Position numbers and translations under genes: made by a program. This document shows, piece after piece, positions 5,913-14,930 of a stretch of 32,850 nt of DNA. Below the pieces are notes generated by a model. The model was not told the DNA's origin, ran no database searches, and was given only the letters and a program-made list of their open reading frames with translations. This DNA comes from a virus: the IMG/VR virus record IMGVR_UViG_3300032092_000137, positions 1 to 32,850 of that record; one strand, 5' to 3'. Each line of letters starts with the position of its first letter. Position 1 is the first letter of the stretch.

Positions 5913-6300
5913 ATCTAGTTTCGATTTAGACTTTGGCTATGGGCGTAAAGGTGAGCAACTTGTAGATGACTTGCTTACTGGCAACCTTACCGTTGAAGTC
6001 AAGCGTGACCGCAAATGGTTTAAGACCAACAACCTTTACATAGAGACTGAATGTTTTTTCCAAAAGGTTGGAGACTGGGCACCCTCTGGACTAGGTGTAA
6101 CTGAGGCTGGATACTGGGCGTTTGTGCTGCAAGACTCAACGTTGATAGTACCAACCGATGTTCTCCGCTATGCGGTAAAAGAATTTGGTAGAGAGATTAG
6201 TTGTTTCATTCCCCCTAATCAAAGTAAAGGCTTCCTCATTACTGTAGATGACTTGATGACTGCGACTAGGAAATATAAAGATGATGCTGGAGTGGAATAG
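5902..6300 (+). CDS. PD-(D/E)XK endonuclease-like protein
   Basis: A 132-residue protein starting at GTG and overlapping the previous gene by 11 bp. The core reads FGYGRKGEQLVDDLL, then TVEVKRDRKW (about 30-39) and LYIETECF. The conserved Glu before the E-V-K motif and the following basic strand match small phage proteins of the restriction-endonuclease fold. Later, SGLGVTEAGYWAFVLQ is a typical strand-helix pair. It could cut DNA in recombination, in host-genome degradation or at branched structures. It is the third PD-(D/E)XK protein of this operon, so these enzymes probably have distinct substrates. The fold is likely; specific activity is unknown. Confidence 0.68.
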   Translation: MANKSSFDLDFGYGRKGEQLVDDLLTGNLTVEVKRDRKWFKTNNLYIETECFFQKVGDWAPSGLGVTEAGYWAFVLQDSTLIVPTDVLRYAVKEFGREISCFIPPNQSKGFLITVDDLMTATRKYKDDAGVE

Positions 6301-6940
6301 AATAGAGCCTTGGCAATACGTAGTTGATACTGTCGCCAAAGAATATAAAAAGCGTTTTCATATGGTGGACATTGAAGACATTCGCCAGACTTTGTATGAG
6401 TGGTTTGTTGAGCACCCTAATAAACTCACCGCTTGGGAAAAGATGGGTACGCGCAGCGCAAAGAACCTTATCTATCGTAGCCTACGCAACCAAGCCCTTG
6501 ACTATTGCCAAGAGTGGAAGGCTAACTCGTCAGGTTATGAGTCAAGTGATTTGTTCTACTATGAATCTGATTTAGTTGAAGCGTTGCTTCCTTCTGTCTT
6601 AAGAGGTGAGAAGAGTATTACTCACAAGTTAGACCTCGGCAGAATTAGTGGTGGTTCTGCGCCCTCTGAAGGTGGCAACCTTCAAGCAATGATGATTGAA
6701 GTTGAGGCTGGTTACAACAAGTTGGCTAAAGAAGATAAACAAGTCTTGTTTCTTCGCTACGCTGAGTCAATGGACTATGAAACAATTGGTAAAGAGTTAG
6801 ACCTTGGTAGTGAAGACGCTGTTCGTATGCGTAACAATAGAATTGTACGCAGATTAATTCAAAAGATTGGTGGCTTTAAACCATTCTATGATAGAGATGA
6901 TGTGCCAGTTGTCTCTGAAGAATCTTCTTTAGAGTCATAG
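6281..6940 (+). CDS. Sigma-70-family-like transcription factor
   Basis: A 219-residue protein whose C-terminal third, LAKEDKQVLFLRYAESMDYE and then TIGKELDLGSEDAVRMRNNR (about 155-195), is a sigma region 4-like helix-turn-helix: a Leu-rich first helix, a YxxIGxxL turn and a recognition helix ending in basic residues. The N-terminal half (DIEDIRQTLYEWFVE and RSAKNLIYRSLRNQALDYC) resembles sigma region 2. Last in the rightward operon, it could direct host RNA polymerase to late (virion) promoters in the control region before the terminase. It overlaps the previous gene by 20 bp and runs 55 bp antisense into the end of the leftward block. A RinA-type regulator is an alternative. Confidence 0.68.
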   Translation: MMLEWNRIEPWQYVVDTVAKEYKKRFHMVDIEDIRQTLYEWFVEHPNKLTAWEKMGTRSAKNLIYRSLRNQALDYCQEWKANSSGYESSDLFYYESDLVEALLPSVLRGEKSITHKLDLGRISGGSAPSEGGNLQAMMIEVEAGYNKLAKEDKQVLFLRYAESMDYETIGKELDLGSEDAVRMRNNRIVRRLIQKIGGFKPFYDRDDVPVVSEESSLES

Positions 6941-7898: not shown

Positions 7899-8306
7899 TT
7901 AATACCAGTTCCTGCGTTGAGAATGTTTCCACGCTTTGCAAGGTGTTCCGTAGCGGTGCTCGATATAGCGGTAGGCTCTGAGTATCTGTATTGCTGGGTC
8001 CTTGCTTTTCTCATTGAGCATTTGCGCTATACCGAAGGCACTACTTCCTTGCATATTCTTGGCTAAGTGGTCGAATCTGCTTTCCTTAGTGAAGAGTAAG
8101 GTAATACATTTACGCTGAGTCTTATCCCAATTCCACCCCACTTGAGCAAACCTCATAGCCATAGCCTTGTTCTGCTGCTTATCTTCCCACGTTGCTTTAG
8201 TCTTAAGACGTGGCTTTATCTGCACATCTACTGTAACTGTGTGGGTTATTGGTGCAAGGGAGGCAAGTAGAACAAGTCCGATGACCACGATTACTCGTTT
8301 TTTCAT
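7899..8306 (-). CDS. Secreted or membrane-anchored lytic transglycosylase-like protein
   Basis: A 135-residue protein with an N-terminal signal or anchor (MKKRVIVVIGLVLLASLAP, 1-19). A compact SLT/lysozyme-like region follows: LLFTKESRFDHLAKN with a probable catalytic Glu75, GSSAFGIAQML (88-97) and AYRYIEHRYGTPCKAWKH (111-128). The order E-S-x-F, G-x-x-x-G-I-x-Q-M, then the YI..RYGTPC.AW block matches actinobacterial transglycosylase domains. It is far from the endolysin/holin pair and in the leftward block, so it may act early or in virion entry rather than in lysis. It overlaps WhiB by 4 bp (ATGA), implying coupled translation. Confidence 0.78.
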   Translation of the reverse strand: MKKRVIVVIGLVLLASLAPITHTVTVDVQIKPRLKTKATWEDKQQNKAMAMRFAQVGWNWDKTQRKCITLLFTKESRFDHLAKNMQGSSAFGIAQMLNEKSKDPAIQILRAYRYIEHRYGTPCKAWKHSQRRNWY

Positions 8307-8647
8307 ACACTAATTCTAGCAATTATCTTTCTAACGTCACGTCTATGACGCTGCTCGTGTCGCACAGAATTATGTGTGTGCTTAAGGCCAGCCAGTAACG
8401 CCCGTTCACCAGTCAATAGCCCGCCCCAGATTGAGCCCACTCCACCCACGCTTAGAATGTTTTCCTGTTCTAACCCTTGCTGCAAACATTGGGCTTTAAC
8501 TGGGCAGTTGTTGCAGATTTCAATTGCTTCTACACTTCTTAAGACGTGAAGTCTTTGCTCATCTGCCAGCGTTGAGTTTTCGTAGTGCCATAAGTCTGGG
8601 TCTGGGTGCCCGTTGCAGAGCCCCTCTGCGTGCCAGGTGCGGTTCAC
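8303..8647 (-). CDS. WhiB-family iron-sulfur transcription regulator
   Basis: A 114-residue Wbl protein with the four cluster cysteines (Cys11, then CNNCPVKAQC giving Cys45, Cys48 and Cys54) and the GSIWGG turn (71-76), followed by a basic tail (RHEQRHRRDVRK) expected to contact DNA. Wbl proteins hold a [4Fe-4S] cluster, bind host sigma factor region 4 and are characteristic of actinobacteria. The mycobacteriophage TM4 homologue is known to interfere with host WhiB2 and affect superinfection. The phage copy could repress or redirect host promoters, perhaps together with the phage sigma-like factor. It overlaps both neighbours by 4 bp. Confidence 0.93.
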   Translation of the reverse strand: MNRTWHAEGLCNGHPDPDLWHYENSTLADEQRLHVLRSVEAIEICNNCPVKAQCLQQGLEQENILSVGGVGSIWGGLLTGERALLAGLKHTHNSVRHEQRHRRDVRKIIARISV

Positions 8648-11699: not shown

Positions 11700-12326
11700 C
11701 TAGTCTCTGGCCTCGAAATCGTGGAAGCAATTCTGGCACCTTGGGGCGCACATTTCAAGCACCTTTTTACTTAGGCGAATCTTCCCGCCACATCCACACT
11801 CGGCCACGAGATTGTTCTTGTCGCGCCCTTTCTTGCCTGCTCCCTGCTCGGTGTCGGCTGTGAGGGCTAGGCCTGCCTCAATAAGTGCTAGGGCCTCGCT
11901 CCATCGCTCCGCGCACTCGTCGCTCACCTCGGTGTTGCTCCACCCGATACGCTTGGCCTGTGTGATTGTGAGGCCTAGGGCCTCGGCTGTGGCCTTGAAC
12001 TTCTTGTTATGGTACCCGTCACCCGATACGCCTTGAATCCCTGCCTGTAGGTCTAGGCTGTGCGCTGTCTCGTGTAGAAGTGTGCCAAGGATAGCGCGGG
12101 CCCCGCGTGTGAAGTATTCTGCCGAGACCATAATCTCGTGAAATGAATCCTCGCCAGATACCCAAGGGCGGGCGTGTGTGAAATGTCCCATCGTGTTGCC
12201 TGTCTTACGGGTGACGAGGATTGTTGCGCGGGGTGCGCCTGTCTTCTCTTGAATCAAGGCGTGAGCACTTTCTAGGGCCTCGGTAATGATTGAGAGGTTC
12301 TCGGTCTTCTTGGTTGTTGTTTGCAT
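11700..12326 (-). CDS. SprT-like zinc metallopeptidase
   Basis: A 208-residue protein with HETAH (85-89) in LLHETAHSLDLQAGI, the HExxH zinc site of SprT/Spartan-like peptidases, and GYHNKKFKATAEALGL (about 104-119), which carries the third His and the family's NxxF block. The C-terminal zinc ribbon (CGC near 177-179 and CAPRCQNC at 193-200) is also typical. Spartan-type enzymes degrade DNA-crosslinked proteins; phage copies may clear host proteins from DNA, but that role is inferred. ATG 12326 is chosen because AGACAGGAGA stands upstream and the longer frame's GTG (12380) overlaps the promoter -10 box. First gene of the leftward block. Confidence 0.86.
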   Translation of the reverse strand: MQTTTKKTENLSIITEALESAHALIQEKTGAPRATILVTRKTGNTMGHFTHARPWVSGEDSFHEIMVSAEYFTRGARAILGTLLHETAHSLDLQAGIQGVSGDGYHNKKFKATAEALGLTITQAKRIGWSNTEVSDECAERWSEALALIEAGLALTADTEQGAGKKGRDKNNLVAECGCGGKIRLSKKVLEMCAPRCQNCFHDFEARD

Positions 12327-12370
12327 TTCTTTCTTCTCCTGTCTTGTGGGGATTTCTCCCTTGTGGCACC

Positions 12371-12399
12371 AGTATTTCACCTCACGACTTAAGTGTCAA
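12371..12399 (-). promoter_or_regulatory. Sigma70-type promoter of the leftward block
   Basis: On the minus strand TTGACA (12399-12394) is separated by exactly 17 bp from AATACT (12376-12371). The -35 is a perfect consensus and the -10 matches four of six. Transcription would start near 12363, about 37 nt before the SprT-like ATG. The spacer contains CTTAAG, and an inverted repeat lies just upstream of the -35. Confidence 0.72.
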
Positions 12400-12411
12400 G
12401 CCTATTTGCAA

Positions 12412-12442
12412 AAAATCTTTCAAATGACTGGTCAAAGATTTT
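12412..12442. promoter_or_regulatory. 9-bp inverted repeat upstream of the leftward promoter
   Basis: AAAATCTTT (12412-12420) and AAAGATTTT (12434-12442) are perfect inverse copies around GACTGGTC-containing loop sequence. Lying 12 bp upstream of the -35 box, it could be an operator. Read leftward it is a hairpin followed by T residues, so a terminator against upstream readthrough is an alternative. Confidence 0.5.
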
Positions 12443-12453
12443 GAGGCAATCTG

Positions 12454-12476
12454 TCGAACAGGTGTTCGAACAGGTG
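12454..12476. repeat. Direct repeat TCGAACAGGTG x2 with embedded palindrome
   Basis: TCGAACAGGTG occurs at 12454-12464 and 12466-12476, a 12-bp period of roughly one helical turn. CGAAC-AGGT-GTTCG (12455-12468) is also a perfect 5-bp dyad. Two tandem half-turn sites suggest cooperative binding of a regulator between the divergent early and late transcription units. Confidence 0.55.
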
Positions 12477-12867
12477 CCCTCTGTCTTCCCCGTAATGGTT
12501 GAAGTTTCAACTATATTTCTGGCCGACATCACCCCCCCAAATCTACAGGGGAGACAGTCACCCCAAGCATAAACGGGTCTACGGTCTCAATCCTTGCTCA
12601 GATATTCCACATTGTTAAAAGAATCCTAGACTTTAAGTCTAGTTAAGTCTTAAGAAGTAAGGGTGAGGAATAACAGTAACCCTCAGGGTGAGGGTGAGAG
12701 TCTGGTGACCGCGAAAACCTGCGAGGGTTTGAGGGGGCATTGATTAAATCTGCCACTATTATATTATATATGGTCAGGAAATAAGTTTCTGTTATATTGT
12801 TACCCCCCTTCTGAACTGGGGTTTTATCCCCAGAGGGCAACTTTTTACTACTTAAGTAATAAATCCT
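12477..12867. other. Gene-free control region (central part)
   Basis: No convincing gene is seen here. It contains a 17-bp perfect palindrome CTAGACTTTAAGTCTAG (12626-12642), directly followed by TTAAGTCTTAAG (12643-12654). A GGGTGAG-rich patch follows (about 12660-12695, with GGGTGAGGGTGAGAG), then an AT-rich TATTATATTATATATGG stretch near 12757-12773. Runs of C (12530-12536 and 12804-12809) are unusual for this genome. Late promoters probably lie here or downstream, but none is convincing by the host consensus, as would be expected if the phage sigma-like factor reads them. Confidence 0.5.
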
Positions 12868-12888
12868 GCGAACCTTACGTTCGCTTTT
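12868..12888 (+). terminator. Short GC hairpin with T-run
   Basis: GCGAAC-CTTAC-GTTCGC (12868-12884), a perfect 6-bp stem, is followed by TTTTA. It fits a weak rightward terminator or attenuator ahead of the virion operon. The U-run is short, so function is uncertain. Confidence 0.45.
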
Positions 12889-13061: not shown

Positions 13062-14930
13062 ATGGGACGCAAGCCAGGAATCCAGAATATACCGAAGAAG
13101 GAAGCCCAGGAGAAGGTACTCATCCAACTCAGCCAGGGGGCAACTATTATCTCCGCTATGGCTGGGGTGGGCCGAAATGACGTTACCTTCCGACAGTGGG
13201 TGATGGCAGACCCTGAGTTCAAGGAGCGAGCCGAGAAAGCCCGCCTTGAAGGCAAAGGCATCAAAGCAGACCTTGCCGATTTAAAGGATATTTCCTTCCC
13301 CGACTTCTGTGAGCAGTTCTTAGACTCTAAGTTGTTCCCCCACCAGTTGAACTGGATGGATATGATAGAGGGTAGGGCCCCTAGGTGGTTACCACCAGGT
13401 ATGACCTATGAACCAGGCGAGGCTGACCGAGTACTTATCAACGTACCCCCAGAGCACGCCAAGTCCACCACTATCACCACCAACTACGTTTTGTACAAAA
13501 TCGTCACCAACCCAAATCACCGAGTCATTATTGTCTCCAAGACCCAGGGTATGGCACGTAAGTTTCTTGGGGCAATCAAGACCCGACTTTCACACCCTGC
13601 CTACACCAAACTGCAAGTGGCCTTCGGCCCTAACGGCGGTTACAAGGCAGATGCAACCCAGTGGTCAGCCGATATGATTTACTTAGGTACAGGCCGCGAC
13701 TCTGGCGAGAAGGACCCTACGGTCCAAGCCCTAGGTATGGGTTCTCAGATTTACGGTGCACGTGCCGACTTGATTATTGTGGACGACGCTGTAATGGGTG
13801 CTAACGCTCACGAGTGGGAAAAGCAACTTGAGTGGCTTCAGAAAGAAGTTATCACTCGTCTTGGCAGACACGGTAAGTTAATTATTGTTGGAACCAGAGT
13901 GTCATCAATTGACCTCTACAAGATGCTGAGGGACCCTGGGCAGTGGTCGGGTGGGGTAAGCCCCTTCACCTACTGCGCTATGCCAGCAGTCTTGGAATTT
14001 GACGAAGACCCGCTTAACTGGAAAACACTCTGGCCTGAAACAGACCAGCAAGAAAATGCAAAGGACGATGCATTACCAAATGGAAATTTTCCCAAGTGGG
14101 ACGGACCTTCTCTCTTTAAGCGTCGCTCTCAGGTCAGCCCCTCAGTATGGGCTATGGTCTACCAACAAGAAGACGTACAAGAAGACTCCATCTTCTCACC
14201 AACCTGCGTTGCAGGAAGCGTCAACGGAATGCGTAAGCGCGGACCTCTCAAAGCGGGGGTTGTAGGCCATCCGAAAAATACTGACAACGCTTACACGGTT
14301 ATTGGTTTTGACCCTGCTATGTCAGGTGCTTCTGCTTTTGTGGCTGTTTCGTACAATCGAACAGACGGAAGAATTTACGTTCTAGACTGTATCAATATGA
14401 CAGAGCCTACGCCAGCCAAGATTCAAGGCGTCATTGAAGAGTGGGTCGAGAAGTACCGCCCTCAGGAGTTCCGCGTAGAAATCAACGCACACCAGAAGGC
14501 ATACTCTCTGGATGATAACTTAAGAAACTTTTTAGCCGCATATGGCTGCCAGTTGAATTCACACTTCACTGGCAAGAATAAGTGGGACACATCTTTTGGT
14601 GTGGCATCAATGGCAAGCCTCTTTGGCTCTGTCAGAGAAGGGCGCTTTCAAGATAACAACTTGATTGAGTTGCCAAGCAATGAAGGCTCAGAGGGAATCA
14701 AGACCCTTATCCAGGAACTTATTACCTGGAAGCCAGATACCAAGAACCCTACCGACTGCGTAATGGCACTCTGGTTTGCAATTATTCGCATACGCGAGTT
14801 GATGCAACAGAGTACAAGAGTTGGACAGTACCAATCAAACCGTTGGGCAACAAGAGCACAAATGTCCCAGCGTGGCTCAATTAATTTAGATGAAGAGTTC
14901 GCCTCACAATGGGCGGAACAATACGGTTAG
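13062..14930 (+). CDS. terL: Terminase large subunit with N-terminal HTH-like region
   Basis: A 622-residue packaging motor and nuclease. Walker A-like NVPPEHAKST is at 127-136, Walker B LIIVDD at 237-242, and the nuclease domain opens with TVIGFDPAMSGAS (metal-binding Asp near 417). Residues 1-70 (GATIISAMAGVGRNDVTFRQ and onward) look like a small-terminase-type HTH fused in front, and no separate small terminase gene is seen. The motor packages DNA through the portal encoded immediately downstream. GGAAG precedes the ATG. As the first gene of the virion operon it defines the late region and follows the 735-bp control region. Confidence 0.92.
   Translation: MGRKPGIQNIPKKEAQEKVLIQLSQGATIISAMAGVGRNDVTFRQWVMADPEFKERAEKARLEGKGIKADLADLKDISFPDFCEQFLDSKLFPHQLNWMDMIEGRAPRWLPPGMTYEPGEADRVLINVPPEHAKSTTITTNYVLYKIVTNPNHRVIIVSKTQGMARKFLGAIKTRLSHPAYTKLQVAFGPNGGYKADATQWSADMIYLGTGRDSGEKDPTVQALGMGSQIYGARADLIIVDDAVMGANAHEWEKQLEWLQKEVITRLGRHGKLIIVGTRVSSIDLYKMLRDPGQWSGGVSPFTYCAMPAVLEFDEDPLNWKTLWPETDQQENAKDDALPNGNFPKWDGPSLFKRRSQVSPSVWAMVYQQEDVQEDSIFSPTCVAGSVNGMRKRGPLKAGVVGHPKNTDNAYTVIGFDPAMSGASAFVAVSYNRTDGRIYVLDCINMTEPTPAKIQGVIEEWVEKYRPQEFRVEINAHQKAYSLDDNLRNFLAAYGCQLNSHFTGKNKWDTSFGVASMASLFGSVREGRFQDNNLIELPSNEGSEGIKTLIQELITWKPDTKNPTDCVMALWFAIIRIRELMQQSTRVGQYQSNRWATRAQMSQRGSINLDEEFASQWAEQYG

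Follow-up and report, generated by a model that had tools for sequence, protein, structure and literature searches.

The window, which is the whole 32,850-nucleotide stretch of viral DNA analyzed here, contains a divergent promoter region between a leftward operon that begins with a gene for a SprT-like metallopeptidase and a rightward late region that begins with the gene for the terminase large subunit, TerL (Table 1). The SprT-like protein scores 27.1 bits against PF10263 (cut-off 25.6), matches PHROG 6361, and has 60 viral relatives among those found, and its gene starts with ATG behind an AGGAG at 12340-12336. SPRTN/SprT family proteases are characterized by a SprT-like domain with an HExxH motif. 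The window protein shares both, and a role in DNA-protein crosslink repair is putative. Several of the leftward genes tested had no family match. Within the leftward block, the minus-strand frame at 7899-8306 matches transglycosylase PHROGs (12661 and 35836), and its protein also shows a weak match to the ends of tape-measure families.

Table 1. Features of the window in and around the divergent promoter region, with the basis of each assignment.
Feature	Coordinates	Strand	Basis or remark
Sigma-70 region 4-like protein	6281..6940	+	PF04545, E 1.5e-4, below curated cut-off
WhiB-like protein, leftward gene block	8303..8647	-	PF02467, E 5e-10
SprT-like metallopeptidase, first leftward gene, 208 aa, HETAH motif	11700..12326	-	PF10263
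Leftward promoter, TTGACA-17-AATACT	12371..12399	-	TG before -10
31-bp dyad, AAAATCTTT-N13-AAAGATTTT	12412..12442	.	Between box and promoter
Probable LexA (SOS) box, TCGAACAGGTGTTCGA	12454..12469	.	Sequence; 0/500 shuffles; same motif at host lexA/recA
Extra left half-site, TCGAAC(AGGTG)	12466..12476	.	Makes the 12-bp tandem; no right half follows
Candidate late (rightward) promoter element, TTTCTGTTATATT	12786..12798	+	Conserved near terL
Hairpin, GCGAACCTTACGTTCGC, terL leader	12868..12884	.	Resembles LexA box, wrong spacing (N5)
TerL (terminase large subunit), first rightward late gene	13062..14930	+	PF17289 over cut-off

The leftward promoter consists of TTGACA at 12399-12394 and AATACT at 12376-12371 on the minus strand, separated by a 17-bp spacer. 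The pattern TTGACA-N16-18-AATACT matches the window once, and 4 of 100 shuffles also yield one match. Upstream of the promoter lie the arms AAAATCTTT and AAAGATTTT of a dyad (12412-12420 and 12434-12442), a perfect 9-bp inverted repeat of a kind that appears in 5 of 300 shuffles of the 201-bp neighborhood (12300-12500), followed by two copies of TCGAACAGGTG at 12454-12464 and 12466-12476, which have a 12-bp period. All of these elements, which the initial annotation had described, were recovered in place, and its view that an operator-like element for a phage or host regulator lies upstream of the leftward promoter is supported, with a host regulator as the likely binder. The further claim that the repeats are tandem sites bound cooperatively at a spacing of one helical turn is not supported. 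TCGAACAGGTGTTCGA is a perfect 16-bp palindrome, TCGAAC-N4-GTTCGA with an ANNT spacer, and the 12-bp direct repeat comes from a second left half-site (12466-12471) into which its right half, GTTCGA, runs. On its sequence, a single LexA (SOS) box of the actinobacterial type, with no mismatch and with an additional half-site, describes the supposed array better.

The mycobacterial LexA box has the form TCGAAC-RNNT-GTTCGA. In Streptomyces venezuelae, the LexA ChIP-seq motif is given as tCGAAC-N4-GNNCGa in the available part of the source (PMC9380542), where the SOS regulon shares the same 16-bp box but consists mostly of chromosomal genes rather than a phage leftward operon. In dinucleotide shuffles of the window, CGAACN4GTTCG arose in 6 of 500, whereas neither TCGAACANNTGTTCGA nor an 11-mer repeated at a 12-bp period arose in any of the 500. 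At up to two mismatches the motif was found 11 times against 7.9 expected, a count so near noise that only the exact site is informative. The box starts 143 bp before the SprT-like start codon, inside the range of -14 to -199 for upstream LexA boxes in the accessible table of PMC9380542. It lies on the upstream side of the promoter, with 55 bp between the end of its core and the -35 element, a distance that is unusual for simple repression.

The window TerL is 80% identical to those of the Planktophila phages LanE43-AprE7 (OX376640) and LanE43-AprF5 (OX376641), hereafter E7/F5, which were isolated on and lyse 'Ca. Planktophila' LanE-43 according to the part of PMC10202952 at hand. Given this kinship, from which the host is inferred, the window phage very probably infects acI Actinobacteria ('Ca. 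Nanopelagicales'). A TerL search of genome_contigs returned no relative, and so gave no prophage or misbinned copy to compare. Phage_integrase had no match in the 24 phage records searched for it, and neither LexA_DNA_bind nor Peptidase_S24 matched in any of 28; since many records are fragmentary, these absences are soft. Because the 28 phage records yielded no S24 or LexA_DNA_bind domain, the host LexA is the expected reader of the box.

A 16S pattern gave 17 loci, including LanE43, from which nine genomes were taken as acI on the pattern together with their titles. LexA_DNA_bind (PF01726) exceeds its cut-off in all nine, and each lexA gene, including that of the E7/F5 host, has two boxes (at most one mismatch) situated 58-62 bp apart; in eight of the nine an exact TCGAACN4GTTCGA is present. 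The second lexA box of LanE43 carries an AGGT spacer, as in the window. LanE43 LexA carries an S24 domain, and its match to 6a2q, the LexA of Mycobacterium tuberculosis, has E 9e-44. Among the loci listed, a box also precedes recA in three (L101 and L119 by Pfam, L114 by eye) and, in seven (L108 by Pfam, six by eye), lies between a DoxX gene and an operon encoding DUF6504 and PHP/DNA-pol-III-alpha, which is presumably dnaE2-like. At up to two mismatches, box counts in the host genomes were below the reversed control in eight of nine and slightly above it in one, thus weak host sites were ignored. Judged by sequence, the window motif is the SOS operator sequence of the acI host group.

Across phage relatives, the box is concentrated in the same region. 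The TerL set comprises 83 loci (the window, L001-L080, L082, and L083; L081 is a copy of the window). In these, exact CGAACN4GTTCG occurs at 15 sites in 14 loci within the 66,955 bp lying up to 1 kb upstream of terL and at only two sites in the remaining 654,594 bp, whereas a control with swapped halves gave none upstream and three elsewhere. Although the search pattern left the spacer free, it reads ANNT in all 15 upstream boxes, and in 25 of 26 boxes when the TerL and SprT sets are combined, a tally in which some contigs are counted twice. Against the LexA reading counts the fact that CGAAC/GTTCG arms are common upstream of terL in any case, since dyads with N3 or N5 were found at 11 sites each, which correspond to the terL-leader hairpin. 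In a collection as large as viral_contigs, TCGAACANNTGTTCGA alone is expected to give many chance matches, so its matches there carry no weight here and 20-base LexA-CRP pair patterns took its place.

The box is nevertheless not fixed in the family. Among the loci with at least about 900 bp upstream, 58 in number with the window counted and L082 and L083 not, an exact box was found within 1.3 kb upstream of terL in 14, the window included, and was missing from 44. E7 and F5 show no box at zero or one mismatch in the terL-flanking stretches covered, which are 11.0 and 13.9 kb long. Before the SprT gene (within 450 bp), 7 of 58 loci, that is the window and 57 SprT relatives, carry the exact box; the other three of the 60 SprT loci (L318, L320, and L322) start within the gene and are not counted, and the alignment used 14 of the 58. 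The first leftward gene of box-bearing relatives can be other than sprT. First-gene finder starts look wrong in L001, L064, L071, L072, and L074 and enter no count, and the SprT start was checked separately. The expectation of the initial annotation that both sites would be conserved upstream of the same promoter was thus borne out in part. L001 and L267 (the same contig), L268, and L269 keep the box and the dyad, the latter with one change between its arms, and L267-L269 have TTGACA-18-TACCCT where the window has its leftward promoter. By contrast, in L263-L266, whose SprT is 97-98% identical, a CRP-like cassette with one mismatch replaces box and dyad between the same flanks. Outside the window and L081, the AAAATCTTT/AAAGATTTT dyad was found only in L001, L267-L269, and L245. 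Since the box is missing from 44 of 58 loci, from E7/F5, and from L263-L266, it is not essential in the phage family, and from these alignments the operator looks like an exchangeable cassette rather than a fixed part.

Two relatives carry paired boxes. In L078 two LexA boxes lie at -446 and -387 from terL, 59 bp apart, and in L002 two boxes with one mismatch each lie at -567 and -501, 66 bp apart; both spacings are near the 58-62 bp of the paired boxes at host lexA. In L064, L069, and L073 a palindrome of the form TATGAT-A/T-ATCATA, seen by eye downstream of the LexA box, may be a further operator.

Taken together, the element is probably a host LexA operator, and the phage belongs to a family whose hosts are freshwater 'Ca. 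Nanopelagicales' (acI). As long as the cell is undamaged, LexA of the host would sit on the box and lower leftward transcription. Infection or external damage would activate RecA, leading to self-cleavage of LexA and switching on of the leftward operon, such that DNA damage would result in expression of the SprT-like protease together with the downstream genes. With the box about 55 bp upstream of the -35 element, LexA probably does not act as a simple block to RNA polymerase. A promoter with TTGAC and a -10 element occurs within 90 bp leftward of only 4 of 15 boxes (L001, L017, L072, and the window), and in relatives the LexA box is placed upstream of an activator-like site; on these grounds and the 55-bp distance, interference with activation is put forward, purely as a proposal, as more likely than promoter occlusion. 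More speculatively, the likeliest target of such interference would be an activator or an alpha-CTD contact in the slot that separates the box from the promoter, which is occupied by a CRP-like site in many relatives and by the 31-bp dyad in the window.

The CRP-like site in this slot leads to the strongest rival explanation, a composite operator at which a CRP-family activator (host CRP), bound in helical phase upstream of the -35 element, would drive leftward transcription and LexA, bound immediately upstream, would override it. The window would then be a derived version with another dyad in the CRP slot. Such an arrangement is a serious possibility, though we would not favor it outright. 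Actinobacterial CRP/GlxR proteins use TGTGAN6TCACA. In the 83 loci, 46 copies of this dyad, spread over 42 loci, lie upstream of terL and 15 lie elsewhere; N5, N7, swapped, and reversed controls gave none upstream. The same sequence is the E. coli CRP consensus, and at M. tuberculosis CRP promoters, which likewise have a palindromic consensus, upstream sites activate, as described in the available part of PMC4117774; the phage relatives differ in that their CRP-like site often adjoins a LexA box. LanE43 CRP matches 3i54, presumably the CRP of M. tuberculosis, over nearly its full length (E 1.5e-79) and keeps the same helix, GASRETVNKALADFA.

Spacing also favors the composite operator. In the TerL set, TTGAC lies within 90 bp leftward of 26 of the 46 CRP-like sites, and the gaps between the two are 10-11 bp (seven), 21-22 bp (six), 30-32 bp (ten), and 42 bp (one), with four off phase; these 28 pairs were not de-duplicated, and a -10 element was not required. 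A larger set of 67 de-duplicated placements (139 raw), which required a -10 element and includes loci fetched for LexA-CRP pairs, gave gaps of 10 bp (30), 20-22 bp (15), 30-32 bp (8), and other values (14). A Rayleigh-type test at 10.5 bp returned p ~4e-19, a nominal value given that the loci are related and pair-fetched loci are included, and an arbitrary period of 13.1 bp still returned 4e-10 because the gap of 10 bp dominates. Scans of viral_contigs with 20-base LexA-CRP patterns found pairs in 48, 29, and 69 stretches at gaps of 0-5, 6-14, and 15-44, respectively; these are raw counts, uncorrected for chance occurrence in the collection. Within the 6-14 class, 26 of 31 placements have a gap of 9 or 10 (17 of 21 after de-duplication). 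Among 99 de-duplicated placements the order LexA-CRP-promoter was seen 32 times and CRP-LexA-promoter three times, while 64 had no recognized promoter. Of 36 contigs that carry the pair and are 30 kb or longer, 27 encode WhiB.

Several results weigh against the composite operator. The window has no exact TGTGAN6TCACA, including in the phased slot upstream of the -35 element; 20 of the 46 CRP-like sites lack TTGAC within 90 bp, and the 64 pairs without a recognized promoter point the same way. The binder might also not be host CRP, since host dyads are few and no clear CRP-like site was seen at the host crp gene. HTH_Crp_2 exceeds its cut-off in seven of nine hosts, and the exact dyad occurs once each in three of the nine acI genomes. 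Six genomes (G001, G002, and G006-G009) hold 1-9 copies of GTGAN6TCAC each, fewer than the 14-43 of the reversed control, although the CRP-family protein of these hosts exceeds its Pfam cut-off.

A broader reading, which we hold tentatively and with somewhat less assurance than the composite operator, is that an interchangeable cassette wires the leftward operon to the host's LexA (damage) and CRP-family (cAMP) alarms. LexA would then act as an upstream anti-activator at preferred spacings, and lineages would swap LexA, CRP-like, LexA plus CRP-like, and other cassettes at one promoter, tuning the commitment of these apparently lytic phages.

The remaining explanations fare less well. Many phage genome copies could serve as a sponge that titrates LexA and turns on the host SOS response without damage, for the sake of repair enzymes or nucleotides. 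The window box is indeed nearer to consensus than the second boxes at host lexA, yet there is usually a single exact box per region (two in L078), and boxes are concentrated in the divergent promoter region, a position that titration does not need, making a sponge improbable. It is more improbable still that the site belongs to a phage regulator (WhiB, the sigma-like factor, or an unrecognized repressor) and is similar to a LexA box in appearance only. WhiB- and sigma-like proteins, which the initial annotation had named as candidate binders, are indeed encoded in the window, and several leftward genes tested belong to no recognized family, but the box is the exact host LexA consensus including the ANNT rule and is the motif of host lexA and recA promoters, and no S24 or LexA_DNA_bind domain was detected in 28 of 28 phage records; moreover, E7/F5 encode both WhiB and sigma (available part of PMC10202952) and are without the box in the stretches covered. 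That the palindrome is a functionless product of chance or a relic is the least credible explanation. In its favor, most of the relatives examined lack the box and close ones have another cassette in its place; against it, the box is enriched upstream of terL, with an invariant ANNT spacer there and no full box in the shuffles.

Phages known to make use of host LexA are mostly temperate. The same emphasis on temperate phages is found in the available parts of PMC4551915 and PMC9437464. In GIL01, as described in the accessible portion of PMC4551915, the P1 promoter involves host LexA and gp7, so that a phage promoter region carries SOS boxes for host LexA as it would in the window; however, GIL01 is temperate, its boxes lie in a lysogenic promoter, and it supplies a phage co-repressor, whereas the phage records searched here yielded no tyrosine integrase, and the window has its box on the upstream side of the promoter. 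The CtrA sites of alphaproteobacterial phages, for which 'lytic deferment' has been proposed, resemble the window in that a host master regulator times phage genes, but the regulator, hosts, and promoter layout differ, and binding and regulation were tested there, whereas the evidence here is computational (PMC9437464, in part). Literature searches on LexA, CRP, and host regulators in phages brought up, among the papers listed, none that describes such operators in phages of acI, and the part of the PMC10202952 text available mentions LexA, SOS, and promoter nowhere.

The SOS box described here occurs in a phage related at the family level to lytic isolates infecting acI, which are among the commonest freshwater bacteria, and suggests that the virus reads the damage alarm of its host. 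Behind it lies a SprT-like gene possibly involved in DNA-protein crosslink repair, and relatives add a CRP-like site. If true, host damage and nutrient state would set phage timing in lakes. With host LanE-43 and phages E7/F5 available as cultures, the proposal can be put to the test, and the LexA box with the CRP-like site offers a sequence handle for actinophage early promoters in metagenomes.

The initial annotation had also given the element the role of switching transcription between an early leftward and a late rightward program. This assignment fits poorly with its position, as the box core is 128 bp from the SprT-like ATG and the box about 593 bp from terL, and with the presence of a separate conserved element at 12786 that is a better late-promoter candidate. 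Of 65 loci, 35 have an element of this type, TT[CT][TA]GTTATATT, in the 450 bp before terL, at a distance of 240-393 bp from the gene, and none occurs elsewhere in the 83 loci. The TTTCTGTTATATT-type element is likely a late promoter, perhaps one served by the phage sigma-like factor. On the same rightward side, near the late-promoter element, one subgroup of relatives has a CRP-like dyad, TGTGAC-N4-GTCACA, at about -241 from terL in L055, L057, L061, L065, L067, L070, L071, L075, and L076 and at -260 in L046 and L051. The terL-leader hairpin, with CGAAC/GTTCG arms and a loop of 3 or 5 bases, is located mostly at -170 to -220 from terL in relatives and acts as a decoy in LexA-box searches.
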